13,644 nt of DNA, from positions 2,547 to 16,190 of the forward strand of contig DQGF01000483.1 of NCBI GenBank assembly GCA_003525045.1. The letters run 5' to 3'. Below the pieces are notes generated by a model. It was not told the DNA's origin. It was given only the letters and a program-made list of their open reading frames with translations, and made no database searches. The position numbers and the translations under genes are program-made. Below are positions 3,482-13,644 of the stretch, one piece after another; the first letter of the stretch is position 1; each line of letters starts with the position of its first letter. Source of the stretch: Pseudomonas sp. (GTDB lineage: Bacteria; Pseudomonadota; Gammaproteobacteria; Pseudomonadales; Pseudomonadaceae).

Positions 3482-4753
3482 TCAATTGCCGCAAAGGTGA
3501 AACGCTGACGCCATGTTGTCTTGTTCACGCCTCGACAACCCCAACGCACCGGCCAGTGTTGGCCATTGGCTGACGACCTCTTGGAAGCTCTCAATAATTT
3601 CTTCCGAATCTGCACGACCTACCCGAAAGTACTCGGCTACTTCGCGAGCGAGTTCAAGATCCAAAGCGTTGTCCGCATCTGTGATGTTTAGCTTCAACCC
3701 ATCCGCGTGTGCTACCGGGTTCATATCGTATGCATCAGACAGACGCCATCCGCGACCGGGGTCGAGGATAAAACCGTGGTTGCGCATGTGGTCGTCGGTA
3801 TTGGAAACCAGGATGTTGAATACGATACGAGACCACAACTCGCGAAGATCTGCGTTGGTTTCCGAGCCGTGCTCCATGAGTACTTCTGCTAACTCAAGGT
3901 AGCTGGCGCCAGCGGACGCATCGTCGCCATCTACACGATCAGTCATGGTCATGGCTGAGGCGAAGTGCAGGCGACCGCCCTGTTCGGTACGGTCGAAACG
4001 CTTGACCATGAAGCAGTGATGATCGCTCGCGAAACGGCGTGCAGTAGCAGTCGCGACCCGCAAGCCACAGTGATTTGCCAAGGCATTTACCACCATTTCC
4101 CAACCGCCGACGTCATAGTCATCACGAGTACTTGGGAATTTTGCGATCCACAAATGACCATGTTCGTCAGCGACGCTGGCCTTTGGCCTGGCACCGCCCA
4201 GCGAGCCACCGGGCGCTATGAGCATCCTTAGCCACTCGCGCCCATCTGCAGATGTGTTGTCCGGGTCGTTCTCCAGGGCGCGACTTGCCTCTTCCAGGGC
4301 GCGTAACTCGACGAAGGGTGGGGCTGCCAAGCCATCGCGATCATCCAGAAAGTTGCCTTCGTCATTGAGCTTGTAGCGAATGGCTCCGACTCGAAAGAGG
4401 TCATGAACGCCTAGTAGGAAATCCGATTCGTATAGCTTGGTACCTTTTGGGACTAATCCTTCACGAATGTCTCGTTCCAGGCGTCGCTTCATTAACAATT
4501 GACCCCACCGATCAGGGCTTGAATCGGCAAATACGCCGAACCGGGTCTGATGTTGGCCGGGGAATTGTCGACCTTCGAAAAGCGCGATACGCGGATCCAG
4601 CGGTGTGAAGTTTAATTCGGGATCGGCCAAGGCAGCAGGGTCGTACTCAAACTCGAACACGTTGGTGGAACGGGCCTTCCTGGCATGGAGGAACCCAAGT
4701 CGCCGTGGGCCGTTCAAGGACTCCCAATCGGCATACACAGCGATCAGCGTCAT
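3482..4753 (-). CDS. hipA: HipA-family Ser/Thr kinase toxin
   Basis: This 423-residue protein is the length of HipA toxins, kinases that phosphorylate translation targets (GltX in E. coli) and induce growth arrest or persistence. Features in order: the N-terminal HipA subdomain; a Gly-rich ATP loop [11 protein letters not shown] (182-192), with S184 at the position of the autophosphorylated Ser150 of E. coli HipA; ATP-binding Lys 205 (WIAKFPS); E219; hinge FMVKRFDR (248-255); the catalytic loop [15 protein letters not shown] with D320/D321 and N325; and metal-binding D343 in YDMNP. All key residues appear intact, so it should be active. The start overlaps the hipB stop by 4 nt (ATGA), implying translational coupling. 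The target is unknown. GC looks slightly lower than in flanking core genes. Confidence 0.9.
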
Positions 4754-5244
4754 TTTTCACCTGTCGTAGGCTTAGGTTTTTTCTTGGTTAACAAACTGGA
4801 TAAAGAGTGGGTGTCGAAAGGAAAGTCGGCAGCAAGATTCGAGTTTGAGGCAGGGCTTTCAAGCGCTCCCGCCGCCCTGTCACGAATAGGCGGCGATGTC
4901 GTTGCTGGAGCCCTGCTGCGTACTCGTTGGCGTTTACTCGCTGCGAGGTTACCTGCAGAGGTCAGTTGAGCGTCCTGCAGTTGTCGCCCCACTTCATCCG
5001 CAGCGGCGAGCTTGTTCAAATCTTTCTCCAGGCCCAGCACCTGCATCACTGACAAATAAGCACCCATGGTCACCCCTGACCCGCCTGACTCCAGGGAGCG
5101 CAGTGTTGTCAGTGACATGCCAGCCCTCTCGGCGACTTGTTTGGCTGTCAGTTTGCGGCGTAGCCGAGCGAGTTTCAGTCGCTCGCCAAATTCGGCGAGC
5201 AGCTTGGTGGCGGCCGGTAATAGAGGTGCTGTTTTCTTAGCCAT
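4750..5244 (-). CDS. hipB: HipB-like antitoxin, XRE-family DNA-binding protein with long tail
   Basis: This 164-residue protein has a helix-turn-helix of the Cro/C1 (XRE) type at about residues 20-75: [20 protein letters not shown], then [19 protein letters not shown] and an L-rich helix. It should bind DNA to repress its own operon and bind HipA to block the kinase. The ATG at 5244 has AAGGA ten bases upstream. hipA follows with a 4-nt overlap. The odd feature is a C-terminal tail of about 65 residues (from about residue 100), Ser/Pro/Lys-rich, apparently disordered and ending [11 protein letters not shown]. Many HipB proteins are only about 90-110 residues long. The gene is preceded by two copies of an operator-like repeat. 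Confidence 0.85.
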
Positions 5245-5869: not shown

Positions 5870-6082
5870 TTATTGGTCGTCAGACTTGGGGGGAAGGGCG
5901 GGAACAAATTGTGGCGGCTTGTTTTGTCGGTACTTGGCGAACACTTCTTCTCGCGTAGGAAGTGGATTGTCGAGTTCTGCTGGTGACGTGTCGAATCCTG
6001 CGAGACGTAGGCTCGCCAGGTAATTTGAGCGACGGACCTTTTCGTAGTGCGCTTGTTTTTGTTTGAAGGTTAATACGCTCAT
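5870..6082 (-). CDS. YhfG family (DUF2559) Fic-antitoxin-like protein
   Basis: This 70-residue protein has an N-terminus (LTFKQKQAHYEKVRRSNYLA, then SLRLAGFD) matching the YhfG pattern LT-x-KQK...RR-x-N(Y/F)-x-AS-x-RL-x-G. YhfG/FicA proteins and AntF of P. fluorescens are known partners that neutralise class I Fic AMP-transferases encoded just downstream. The inhibitory Fic-antitoxin helix usually carries (S/T)xxxE(G/N); an obvious copy is not clear here. No Fic gene (HPFxxGNG) exists in this window; DUF1493 follows instead. The C-terminal 15 residues are Pro-rich. It may be an orphan antitoxin or have a different partner. The ribosome site upstream of the ATG at 6082 is weak. Confidence 0.65.
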   Translation of the reverse strand: MSVLTFKQKQAHYEKVRRSNYLASLRLAGFDTSPAELDNPLPTREEVFAKYRQNKPPQFVPALPPKSDDQ

Positions 6083-6146
6083 GTCGATTGTCTCGGGCTA
6101 CCAGCGGTTGCGTTCCGGAGCGTGATTATGCGATGCGTTCATCACA

Positions 6147-6169
6147 GGGCAAGCCAGCTCCCACAAAGG
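6147..6169. repeat. Degenerate REP-like element
   Basis: GGGCAAGCCAGCTCCCACA plus AAGG resembles the Pseudomonas REP core (GGGCAAGC...GCTCC(C/T)ACA). It is a single copy in the gap between the small-protein gene at 6196-6492 and the YhfG-like gene. Confidence 0.5.
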
Positions 6170-6195
6170 CCTGACTTGCCTGTCAGTGCGTAGCT

Positions 6196-6492
6196 TTAGG
6201 CTGGAGCTTTCCAATTCAGCATTCGTTGCTGGGCGACTTTTAGCAGGTCGCAGCCGTCCTGGGTCAGGAGGTAGAGCGCGTGGGTGATGTGGGGGATGTC
6301 TTCGACGTCACCGTGCTCGAAGCATTGGCAGTGCAGGGTTCGGAGCAGCTCGCTGGAGGCTCGGATGCGCTGGAGGGCGGCTTCGAGGATGTCTTGGGGG
6401 TTGGCTTCTGTGTCGATGATCAGGGGCGGGGAATCGGTGAGGTTGGTTTGGAGTGGGCGGTAGCGATTTGGAAACGGATTCAGAGTTTGCAT
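6196..6492 (-). CDS. Small Pseudomonas-type protein of unknown function, paralogue A
   Basis: This 98-residue protein is soluble and mostly helical, with no signal peptide. I do not recognise a function; its look recalls the small Pseudomonas families DUF3077/DUF6124, but this is only a resemblance. It is clearly paralogous to the protein at 7008-7331: both share NRYRPL, IDTEA(N/D)P, IL(E/D)AA-x-QRIRA and ALYLLTQDG, 52 of 83 aligned residues identical by hand count. The ATG at 6492 lacks a strong ribosome site. It lies 20 nt after the end of a 54-codon open frame and just below a large structured RNA element, so its translation may be controlled by that leader. Confidence 0.7.
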   Translation of the reverse strand: MQTLNPFPNRYRPLQTNLTDSPPLIIDTEANPQDILEAALQRIRASSELLRTLHCQCFEHGDVEDIPHITHALYLLTQDGCDLLKVAQQRMLNWKAPA

Positions 6493-6512
6493 ATGAATTA
6501 CTCGGTTTGTTG

Positions 6513-6677
6513 TTAAGTAACCGCCAGCACCGTGACCAAACGATGGGAGGCGGACTGTGCGCAGGTTTGGTCAACCGAGAACAACAACCCGGCTCGCCCG
6601 AAGGCGTCCCGCACACAGCCGCCATAGCAATGCACTACGAGGACATAGATGTCCGCGGCGCGAATGATGGCACACAT
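6513..6677 (-). CDS. Possible 54-residue leader peptide
   Basis: This open frame begins at the ATG inside the palindrome GCACACATGTGTGC and ends 20 nt before the small-protein gene at 6492. The peptide starts MCAIIRAADIYVLVVHCYGG and is Cys/Val-rich. The same frame stays open upstream to 6819 without another ATG/GTG/TTG. It runs through the predicted RNA stems, so it may be a leader peptide coupling translation to RNA folding, or just a chance open frame in a structured RNA. The ribosome site (GAGAAC ten bases upstream) is poor. Confidence 0.25.
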   Translation of the reverse strand: MCAIIRAADIYVLVVHCYGGCVRDAFGRAGLLFSVDQTCAQSASHRLVTVLAVT

Positions 6678-6727
6678 GTGTGCGTTGTTCTCAGGTGACC
6701 AAACCTGATCGCTGATTTTGCAGCGAT
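6562..6727 (-). ncRNA. Candidate structured leader RNA upstream of the 6196-6492 gene
   Basis: On the minus strand, 6707-6684 pairs with 6585-6562 over 24 positions: 22 Watson-Crick pairs, one G-U and one mismatch. The closed region holds the palindrome GCACACATGTGTGC (6683-6670), the hairpin GGACAT-CT-ATGTCC (6654-6641) and CGCC-TTCG-GGCG (6606-6595). That last is a C-UUCG-G tetraloop only when read on the minus strand, which fixes the likely sense. A further hairpin, ATCGCTG-CAAAAT-CAGCGAT (6727-6708), abuts the closing stem at its 5' side. The element ends 69 nt before the ATG at 6492. It could be a cis-regulatory leader, a processed sRNA or a mobile non-coding repeat. Folding was done by hand. 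Confidence 0.6.
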
Positions 6728-6826
6728 AGCGAGACAGTAAACGTTCGCAATTAGGTGGCGATAGGCGACAAGGTGTCTTTTTTTGTAGGACCGTGCCGAA
6801 GCTTTGATAGGGCGTTGCCTACGGAC
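6728..6826. other. Gap between the RelB-like gene and the structured RNA
   Basis: No gene was found here, and no RelE/ParE toxin frame follows the RelB-like gene. There is a run of seven T (+ strand, 6778-6784), but no strong stem that would make it a terminator. A promoter for the structured RNA should lie here; TTGCGA with TATCGC 16 nt further on (minus strand, about 6752-6725) is only a weak candidate. Confidence 0.4.
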
Positions 6827-6994
6827 TTATCCCTTCCGTAATTTCTCTCGCTTAATTACCATCAGTTGCTTGGCTTCTTCATCTGGAATGCTTGGGCGAG
6901 GGGCGTTGAGGCTGGTTTGTACTTGTGCTTTGAACCATGCGTCGTAGATTGATTTTTCGCGCGATTGTTGAGTTTCAGGCGTTTTGGTTTTCAT
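6827..6994 (-). CDS. Short RelB-like antitoxin / stability-determinant protein, no toxin adjacent
   Basis: This 55-residue protein contains YDAWFKAQVQTSLNAPRPSI followed by PDEEA. It resembles the conserved segment YD-x-W-(F/L)-x-A-x-VQ-x-SL-x-(D/A)PRP-x-IP of plasmid stability-determinant antitoxins related to RelB/ParD. Those are usually longer at both ends and precede a RelE/ParE toxin; none is present here. A TTG at 7027 would extend the protein by 11 residues, but that stretch is read from a REP element, so the ATG at 6994 is preferred. It starts 13 nt after the stop of the small-protein gene at 7008-7331 and is probably co-transcribed with it. Confidence 0.5.
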   Translation of the reverse strand: MKTKTPETQQSREKSIYDAWFKAQVQTSLNAPRPSIPDEEAKQLMVIKREKLRKG

Positions 6995-7007
6995 CGGGTA
7001 AACCGCG

Positions 7008-7331
7008 TTATCGTTCTTCGCGGGCAAGCCTCGCTCCTACAGGGGCGGTGGTTTTTGGCAAGCGTTGGCGGGCGACTTCGAGCAATTCGTTGCCATCCTG
7101 AGTCAGCAGGTACAGGGCGCTGACGATGTTGGGAATGTCGCTCGCGTCGGCTTGTTTGAAGCACAGGGAATACAGGGTTTCGAGCAGGTCGCTGGCGGCG
7201 CGGATGCGTTGGCGGGCGGCGTCGAGGATTTCGTGAGGGTCGGCCTCGGTGTCGATGACCAGCACGGGGGTGTCGCTGTAGCTGGTTCTGAGTGGGCGGT
7301 AGCGGTTTGTATGCGGATCGGGGTTGTTCAT
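7008..7331 (-). CDS. Small Pseudomonas-type protein of unknown function, paralogue B
   Basis: This 107-residue, soluble, mostly helical protein has unknown function and is a paralogue of the protein at 6196-6492 (about 63% identity over the shared 83 residues). The ATG at 7331 is chosen because AGGA lies 9 nt upstream and because the homology begins just after it; the frame is open further upstream to 7382. The last ten residues (VGARLAREER) and the stop fall inside a REP element, so the natural end was probably replaced by the repeat. It has a plausible promoter (7401-7430) and leads the short RelB-like gene. Unlike its paralogue it lacks the large structured RNA leader. Confidence 0.7.
   Translation of the reverse strand: MNNPDPHTNRYRPLRTSYSDTPVLVIDTEADPHEILDAARQRIRAASDLLETLYSLCFKQADASDIPNIVSALYLLTQDGNELLEVARQRLPKTTAPVGARLAREER
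7014..7042. repeat. REP element overlapping the end of paralogue B
   Basis: The core CGCGGGCAAGCCTCGCTCCT is the common Pseudomonas REP form. It is a single copy, and on the minus strand it encodes the C-terminal VGARLAREER of the 7008-7331 protein. It also forms the region just before the RelB-like start. Confidence 0.75.
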
Positions 7332-7400
7332 CGAGGTCAGTCCTGTGGGAAGTCGGGCAGTCTCGCCGGCAGGCCGACACACGTTTCAGCCTCGCCGCAG

Positions 7401-12900: not shown

Positions 12901-13386
12901 TCAGTGACGACGGTAGTTCTTGTGGTGTTTGCGATGCCCATAGGCATGGCCACGACCCGGGTGGCCGTCACGGTAGTAGCGACGGTCATCGCCGCCACGA
13001 TGGGAGCGACGATCATCGTCCTCATCGCTCTTGTTGCCCATGTAGTTACCCAGCGCGCCACCGGCGCCGCCGCCTGCTGCGGAGCCGATCAGGCTGCCGG
13101 TGGTGCCGCCCATGCTGCGGCCGACCACGTTACCGCCTGCTGCGCCCAACGCACCACCGATAGCGGCTTCGCCACGGCTGCGTTTGTCTGCGCCAACTGC
13201 GCTACCACCCGCGCCGCCCAGGGCCGCGCCAATGGTGGAACCTGTACTGCCGCCTAATGACTGACCGACGACCGAGCCCAAAACCCCGCCCAATGCGCCG
13301 CCCACACCTGCTTCGGTGGTGCCGCCGGCAGAAGCGAAGCCACTGACCAGGCCAAGGGACAACAAGAGAATCGAGGAGAACTTCAT
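12901..13386 (-). CDS. Glycine-zipper envelope protein
   Basis: This 161-residue protein has a Sec signal peptide MKFSSILLLSLGLVSGFASA, likely cut after residue 20. The mature part holds two tandem Gly-rich units of about 42 residues (25-66 and 73-114, offset 48) with GxxxG spacing, i.e. glycine-zipper segments that can pack in or against membranes. The tail after residue 120 is an acidic patch followed by a strongly basic His/Arg/Tyr-rich stretch ending HRKHHKNYRRH. No Cys lipobox is present. The ATG at 13386 has GAGG 7 nt upstream. Known zipper proteins of this type are outer-membrane or periplasmic and often stress-linked. Function is not assigned. Confidence 0.8.
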   Translation of the reverse strand: MKFSSILLLSLGLVSGFASAGGTTEAGVGGALGGVLGSVVGQSLGGSTGSTIGAALGGAGGSAVGADKRSRGEAAIGGALGAAGGNVVGRSMGGTTGSLIGSAAGGGAGGALGNYMGNKSDEDDDRRSHRGGDDRRYYRDGHPGRGHAYGHRKHHKNYRRH

Positions 13387-13457
13387 AGAGAAACCTCAAG
13401 GGGATGACGGCGCGATCCTGAGGCTGTGTCATGGTCGTGACAATCGAAATCCGACGA

Positions 13458-13486
13458 GTGACACGACTTCAACACATTTCTATAAG
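13458..13486 (+). promoter_or_regulatory. Candidate sigma70 promoter for a small RNA
   Basis: GTGACA (13458-13463) and TATAAG (13481-13486) have an ideal 17-nt spacer. It points rightward, away from the glycine-zipper gene, and predicts a start near 13493. No protein-coding frame of note follows. Confidence 0.5.
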
Positions 13487-13492
13487 TTACTG

Positions 13493-13574
13493 TTTTTTAG
13501 GCGGAACTTAACTGTTTTTCACCGGTCTTTAGTTACTTCGGAATGGCCGTTTTTGTGAAAAAACGGCCTTTTTT
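13493..13574 (+). ncRNA. Putative small RNA of about 82 nt
   Basis: A consensus-like promoter is followed, within about 82 nt, by a strong rho-independent terminator with six T, and no gene on the + strand lies between. The transcript would be U-rich with several A/U stretches and end in a GC-clamped hairpin and U-tail, features of Hfq-dependent sRNAs. Its identity is unknown. The alternative is that the terminator only blocks read-through from the left. Confidence 0.45.
13545..13574 (+). terminator. Rho-independent terminator without an obvious upstream gene
   Basis: GGCCGTTTTT (13545-13554) pairs with AAAAACGGCC (13559-13568) and is followed by six T. The T-run is only on the + strand, yet the nearest + gene ends at 12831 and already has its own terminator. 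Confidence 0.85.
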
Positions 13575-13628
13575 GTGGGCGTTTGGAAAGTGTTCGAGGG
13601 GGGTGATACATGTGTTGCCCAGTCGGAC

Positions 13629-13644
13629 GCCTTCGCGGGCAAGC
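13629..13644. repeat. REP element cut by the window edge
   Basis: GCCTTCGCGGGCAAGC matches the start of the REP form seen at 7014-7042 and probably continues beyond the window. Confidence 0.6.

Follow-up and report, generated by a model that had tools for sequence, protein, structure and literature searches.

C4-type antisense RNA units with matched target sites upstream of small genes in Pseudomonas

Introduction

On the minus strand of a Pseudomonas contig, directly upstream of a gene for a 98-aa protein, lies an RNA element whose extensive base pairing raises two questions, namely what kind of RNA it is and on which gene it would act. It was found in a stretch of 13,644 nucleotides, here called the window, and an initial annotation made from the letters alone placed a large multibranched structure at 6562..6727 (-) and offered a cis-regulator, a processed sRNA or part of a toxin/antitoxin-like locus as explanations. 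On its sequence, the structure is an antisense RNA of the phage P1 C4 type, accompanied by two complementary target sites and located 5' of the small gene.

C4 RNA and its target c4-a1b1 were listed from Proteobacteria and phages by Weinberg et al. (2010; PMC2864571). In phages P1 and P7, C4 is described as a product that RNase P releases from a longer transcript, with segment a' providing the specificity and segment b' lying partly over the ribosome-binding site of the target (PMC5320573). More recently 21 C4-like sRNAs were described in Acinetobacter baumannii, for which phage or bacterial transcripts are discussed as targets (Weiss et al., 2016; PMC5320573). The passages on C4 antisense RNA in four further papers (PMC12189769, PMC8201110, PMC9810633, PMC6978653) contain nothing on Pseudomonas units, and among the open-licence papers searched no report ties C4 to DUF6124, DUF3077 or small genes of the window type. 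The RNA family is thus a known one; what appears to be new is its multiplied and gene-dedicated form in Pseudomonas, with triads of co-varying sites, which is undescribed in the literature searched. Here we describe the anatomy of the unit, its copy number, the genes that follow it and the matching of its loops to neighboring sites, and weigh different models for its function and origin.

Anatomy of the C4 unit

Comparison with Rfam, which the initial annotation had recommended, gave matches to C4 (RF01695) and to c4-a1b1 (RF03163), both over their curated cut-offs (Table 1), and the suggestion of a cis-regulator or processed sRNA was therefore right in kind, as the segment scores as a C4 antisense RNA together with its a1/b1 target. 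The isrK family (RF01394) also matches the a1/b1 part, below threshold (32.6 bits against a cut-off of 50).

Table 1. Features of the C4 unit and its surroundings in the window
Feature	Position	Strand	Basis or remark
Upstream paralogue of the window gene	7008..7331	-	58% identical over piece 7008-7322
Candidate -10 region, TTACTGT	6734..6740	-	Inferred from placement before the a1 hairpin across 36 aligned loci
c4-a1b1 target match	6740-6688	-	RF03163, 49.5 bits vs curated cut-off 46.7
7-bp hairpin before a1, within the c4-a1b1 match 6688-6740	6708..6727	-	RF03163 match
a1, first target site for a'	6693..6706	-	Complement of a'; core repeated in a2
b1, first target site for b'	6684..6692	-	9-nt perfect complement of b'
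Spacer, with palindrome (6670-6683, 14 nt) and hairpin (6641-6654)	6641..6683	-	
C4 antisense RNA	6543..6629	-	RF01695, 56 bits vs curated cut-off 45, model positions 1-87 of 87
C4 closing stem, 5' arm	6609..6623	-	Rfam structure line
UUCG hairpin of C4	6595..6607	-	Rfam structure line
b' loop of C4	6577..6588	-	Complementary to b1 over 9 nt and to b2 over 8 nt
a' of C4	6564..6576	-	Pairs with a1 and a2; 9-nt core in common with a2
C4 closing stem, 3' arm	6549..6565	-	Rfam structure line
a2, second target site for a'	6531..6542	-	Complementarity to a'; 9-nt perfect core
b2, second target site for b'	6501..6514	-	Perfect stretch 6514-6507
Presumed regulated gene, 98-aa protein	6196..6492	-	Homologue search

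The structural elements reported at first are all present. The complementary arms 6707-6684 and 6585-6562 on the minus strand are joined by 23 pairs, interrupted by a single 1x1 mismatch (-37.5 kcal/mol), and the 14-nt palindrome, the internal hairpin, the UUCG hairpin and the abutting 7-bp hairpin were recovered as well. The predicted fold of the segment 6740-6500 (241 nt) reaches -106.2 kcal/mol, whereas 200 dinucleotide shuffles gave -81.0 +/- 5.2 kcal/mol (z = -4.88) and 0/200 were as good. What has to be revised is the reading of the parts. A multibranched RNA with a closing stem of 24 positions describes the window fold with its 23 pairs and fails to describe the majority of the comparable loci, where fewer than 10 pairs connect the upstream part and C4 in the predicted fold (71/93); the long "stem" is better understood as antisense loops facing their first target, b' opposite b1 and a' opposite a1. 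Likewise, the interval 6562-6727 holds a1/b1, a' and b' and ends inside the unit: because the C4 closing stem is formed by 6623-6609 with 6565-6549, the interval cuts across it and leaves its 3' arm and the second target (6542-6501) wholly or mostly outside.

Copy number and distribution

The unit of the window is one of many. The genome to which the window belongs (5.41 Mb in 610 contigs, 80% complete) contains 22 C4 matches, all over the cut-off, as well as 23 c4-a1b1 matches, 10 of them over the cut-off. Two loci of this genome (L004 and L006) show c4-a1b1 without a C4 match and have stretches of N where C4 seems to start, and may be complete units. A deeper search of six single-contig genomes of the genus, which homologue names place in Pseudomonas in the broad sense, gave 36, 15, 22, 15, 23 and 43 C4 copies (range 15-43). 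The covariance-model search of the genus that had been proposed at the outset found c4-a1b1 in 272 of 298 Pseudomonas genomes, with matches over the cut-off in 255, and the copy numbers per genome in this survey are lower bounds. Outside the genus the family is far less frequent: C4 was present in 24 of 369 sampled Gammaproteobacteria, the window's own genome included, and among the other 23 one carries at least 10 matches and the rest at least 1 to 6. The former (G571) is a genome of 4.8 Mb from another family of the class, in which C4 has possibly multiplied independently.

Small genes downstream of C4

The presumed regulated gene of the window encodes a protein that has 446 homologues at E<=0.001, and of the 120 best matches listed, every one that carries an organism name is from Pseudomonas. 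No match to Pfam, NCBIfam or PHROG was found at E<=0.001, so that a match to an antirepressor is absent too, and relaxing the Pfam search up to E 1 yielded only sub-threshold Cas_Csd1 and Ferritin. Profile comparison gives the family probabilities of 4.3% and 8.2% for a relation to DUF6124 and DUF3077, respectively, and two homologues among the matches listed (P0057 and P0109) bear the DUF3077 name from their source. An AlphaFold2 model (mean pLDDT 79.9) consists of two short strands and two long helices; it matched nothing in the PDB or BFVD at E<=0.001, and thus no function follows from it. Matches to the gene occur in 136 of 249 Pseudomonas genomes. Among 29 further loci with close homologues, C4 over the cut-off precedes the gene in 25, and the remaining four (L149, L154, L155 and L165) have no C4 over the cut-off, yet an a1-like hairpin stands before the gene, indicating that the gene can persist without C4. 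No C4 match precedes the paralogue upstream of the window gene.

Among 92 scanned ORFs downstream of C4 (L039, L043 and L086, with the ORF absent or shorter than 25 aa, were excluded), 31 belong to DUF6124 (PF19619), 13 to DUF3077 (PF11275) and one to Bro-N at E<=0.001, and no further Pfam family was found among them at this threshold. The share of DUF6124 is probably an undercount, since several ORFs of genome G034 were chosen in a frame other than that of a DUF6124-like motif. In these G034 copies (L122, L126, L131, L136, L137, L138, L139 and others) the start codon and the motif are out of frame, and the break often falls past a run of C near codon 14, with which an assembly error, pseudogenes and frameshifting are equally compatible. 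The Bro-N ORF stands at locus L041 of the window's own genome; it also matches antirepressor PHROGs, and its layout is the nearest to that of P1.

Viewed from the side of the gene, a same-strand C4 stands no more than 450 nt upstream of 88 of the 105 DUF6124 matches in the six single-contig genomes, where 0.12 would be expected, and 17 have no listed C4 upstream. Conversely, 88 of the 150 listed C4 stand before a DUF6124 match, the proportion being 0/14 in G163 and 2/23 in G190, where other small families are found. These counts, and those for integrases given below, use 150 of 154 reported C4 (one below the cut-off), and the 105 DUF6124 rows also include one below the cut-off. By profile comparison DUF6124 joins DUF3077 (97.7%) and, less surely, a family beginning MLKIVPDPP (85%). 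The three groups are otherwise diverged, and an N-terminal P-[DN]-P-P motif just past the start tends to recur in them. A predicted model of DUF6124 reached pLDDT 75.7 and pTM 0.52. Neither the window protein nor three representatives of other C4-associated families matched the anti-phage defense models of PADLOC at E<=0.01. In the libraries searched, no function is assigned to DUF6124, DUF3077 or the unnamed family of the window, and an antisense RNA directly upstream suggests that these small genes are tightly controlled and offers a direct experimental handle on them.

Matching of C4 loops to their own sites

If C4 is dedicated to the adjoining gene, its loops should fit the sites of their own locus better than those of others. 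This was examined in 92 loci from five genomes (L043, L106 and L109 were excluded from the 95), with shuffled partners as control; 73 of the C4 loci, all those listed there, came from four of the six single-contig genomes, while the other two (G010 and G097) contributed to the wider analysis by coordinates only. In 91 of the 92 loci, a' and a2 share a perfect core of 6 nt or longer, compared with a mean of 21.9 and a maximum of 32 in 200 shuffles, and the same core is found again upstream, as a1, in 85 (shuffled mean 4.2, maximum 10; 200 shuffles). There are 44 distinct cores among the 92 loci. The longest perfect run averages 7.12 in cis vs 4.62 when shuffled within the genome for the start region (b2), 7.16 vs 4.75 for a2 and 7.48 vs 6.01 for the upstream region, each reached in 0 of 5000 permutations, counts which are not strict probabilities because related sequences are not independent. 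The initial annotation had held that homologous loci in which the arms drift without compensatory changes would speak against a functional structure, and this was not observed in 26 loci (the window and 25 with close homologues of its gene), where the match of b' is 7.15 to its own b2 vs 5.21 when swapped, and 8.08 vs 5.42 to its own upstream region (0/10,000 permutations in both cases). Duplex energy discriminates more weakly for single loci, with the own b2 best or tied in 34 of the 92 and ranked first in 8 of 21 loci in the window's genome; duplex energies against the upstream region were left unused, as they contain an artefact, probably from stretches of N. At L049, the complementarity of b' extends through 14 nt up to the ATG. 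Where an ORF was chosen (94 loci), the start codon lies 38-62 nt past C4 in 92, a spacing that is partly a consequence of the start choice made by the script and to which no weight is given.

A model for the C4 switch

The reading that we favor, with a probability of roughly 0.8, is a chromosomal antisense switch of the C4 type dedicated to the adjoining small gene, in which each C4 represses translation of its own gene. Since the anatomy known from P1 and P7 is also present here, the evidence best supports a model in which translation of the adjacent gene would be lowered. A single minus-strand transcript would carry a1-b1, then C4, then a2-b2 and the gene for the 98-aa protein, and C4 would be cut out of it. 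Segment a' would then pair with a2 as an anchor and b' with b2 near the gene start, by which translation would be lowered, and pairing with a1-b1 may add a second layer, either by titration or by control at the level of the transcript. In regard to processing, the GGT/GGA motif of RNase P occurs in the first 11 nt of C4 in only 35 of 95 loci, and the window has GGC. This motif is reported for the phage and most Acinetobacter C4, and two Acinetobacter members with GGC are reported to be processed (PMC5320573).

The closest known system is C4 of P1 and P7 (RF01695, with targets RF03163), which has the same fold, the a' and b' loops, a1/b1 upstream and a second site before the start codon, and differs in the regulated gene, which is icd/ant in the phages and here encodes a protein of no named family in one of 22 units of a genome (PMC8198154, PMC5320573). 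An antirepressor as the regulated gene is thus absent from the window and is seen in 1 of the 92 scanned ORFs (L041). The Group 1 sRNAs of A. baumannii AB5075 resemble the Pseudomonas set in their number (21 C4-like RNAs in the genome) and variable loops, and are reported to be expressed and apparently processed; no cis target gene is named for them in the passages on this group, whereas here C4 is matched to its own leader beside a small gene (PMC5320573). The targets of such C4-type RNAs, the Acinetobacter set for example, might lie in their own transcripts. The IsrK-orf45-anrP leader of Salmonella Gifsy-1 (RF01394) also has complementary segments on one transcript 5' of an ORF, but IsrK is a translational activator whose operon leads to an antirepressor, to which the window gene has no match (PMC4825925). 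Phage P4 CI RNA, likened here from its description, is an antisense RNA processed from an untranslated leader that pairs with sites on both sides (PMC4825925); unlike the mechanism proposed here, P4 CI works through transcription termination.

An alternative is that the main action of the C4 array is in trans, as a form of superinfection immunity in which it shuts off antirepressor or early genes of phages and satellites that enter the cell, with the small genes being secondary. C4 has an immunity function in P1 and P7, the same idea was raised for Acinetobacter by Weiss et al. (PMC5320573), and weak leader matches exist in a few phage records at E<=0.1 (three for the window and eight for the DUF6124 locus L056). 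Nevertheless, none of the phage records matches 80% of either leader, and the loops of a given C4 tend to be better matched to the a2, b2 and upstream region of their own locus than to those of others, so that we consider a mainly trans-acting array unlikely. The two ideas would meet in a bolder extension of the dedicated switch, to which we likewise give little credence: the 15-43 copies of a genome might constitute as many distinguishable antisense switches, built from a multiplied phage immunity RNA, each of which would hold one small protein back until its C4 is titrated, as might happen when a phage or satellite brings in a matching C4 target. If true, such a titration-released array would be an RNA-based detector of invaders of the C4 and P4 type. 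Independent of this extension, the presence in one cell of many copies with co-varying loops provides a natural data set for the specificity of antisense pairs.

Origin and mobile-element context

The dedicated switches probably descend from immunity modules of phages or satellites, which would have multiplied in the genus to tens of copies with their loops co-varying. Nine C4 loci outside the genus were inspected. An AntA-type antirepressor follows C4 in L065, a primase-like ORF containing Toprim does so in L061, and primase-like (Toprim-type) ORFs were recognized by eye only in L062 and L067. The ORF between C4 and the primase-like ORF in L061 matches the profile of the window family (E 6e-14), and an ORF of L066 matches it more weakly (2e-5; database size set to 10,000 in both cases). 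The pairing of C4 with the window family is therefore not confined to the genus, and it appears to occur in mobile elements as well. A search of 50,697 phage records with the window protein gave no match. For the DUF6124 protein of L056 there is a single phage match, close to the repressor gene in a prophage record of Pseudomonas fluorescens, and none in 72,556 plasmids.

It could be argued that the units are decaying remnants of phages or satellites without present function. C4 is a phage family, some copies outside the genus stand before antirepressor or Toprim ORFs, and the score of the window C4 is the second lowest of the 22 in its genome. C4 also lies near tyrosine integrases somewhat above chance, with 9 of 150 within 10 kb (3.8 expected) and 7 within 5 kb (1.9 expected), as counted with 54 of 58 integrase rows after four weak or partial matches were omitted. 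On the other hand, for the remaining 141 of 150 no tyrosine integrase was detected inside 10 kb, c4-a1b1 is found in 272 of the 298 genomes of the genus that were surveyed, and complementarity is maintained despite sequence divergence. General decay is judged slightly less probable than action in trans. The high-scoring C4 within 5 kb of a tyrosine integrase (L070, L071, L121 and one at G097:C1:5361143) may represent a mobile-element form, and the ORF downstream of the first three encodes a 52-aa protein that forms a group of its own.

The window copy and its neighbors

The copy in the window is not the strongest example of the dedicated switch, as it combines a short b2 match, a departing -10 region, the GGC start and an unusually stable joint fold. 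The perfect b' match in b2 is only 8 nt long and ends 14 nt 5' of the ATG at 6492, where no strong Shine-Dalgarno sequence is visible, and therefore regulation by this copy may be weak. At the position of the candidate -10 region, TATAGT or TATCGT is often seen in related loci (TATAGT in the four homologue loci without C4 over the cut-off), from which the window copy departs, and so its promoter may be weak. A generic promoter scan of 6000-7400 made no call there. The script for a1 hairpins found 37 of 95 and was too strict, and the promoter positions derived from it are illustrative only. The joint fold of the upstream region and C4 in the window is 10.8 kcal/mol better than the separate folds and has 23 inter-part pairs, which, together with the alternation between two folds described for the isrK-orf45 leader of Gifsy-1 (PMC4825925), would suit an attenuator in which a1-b1 lies on b'-a' of the same molecule as one long cis hairpin while the C4 fold serves as the alternative conformation of the leader, with no separate antisense RNA. 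This is the least probable of the alternatives: at least 10 such pairs occur in just 22 of the 93 loci, joint folding gains a median of 1.8 kcal/mol, and the target downstream of C4, which is also matched, would be superfluous.

The ORFs searched around the unit include HipA-, HTH-, DUF1493-, YhfG-, PaaA2- and S8-peptidase-like ones. Downstream of the C4 unit, a HipA-like ORF and its HTH partner form a HipBA-like pair at 3482-5244 (-), and the gene of the unit itself is flanked by a YhfG-like ORF at 5870-6082 (-) and a PaaA2/RelB-like ORF of 55 aa at 6830-6994 (-). A tandem of type II toxin-antitoxin systems was considered and rejected, given that no toxin partner for the PaaA2- and YhfG-like ORFs was present among the ORFs searched and no link to C4 was found. 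At the far end of the window, the Pseudomonas sRNA P34 (RF02405) is encoded at 13286-13644 (+) with 172.5 bits, and is cut by the window end.
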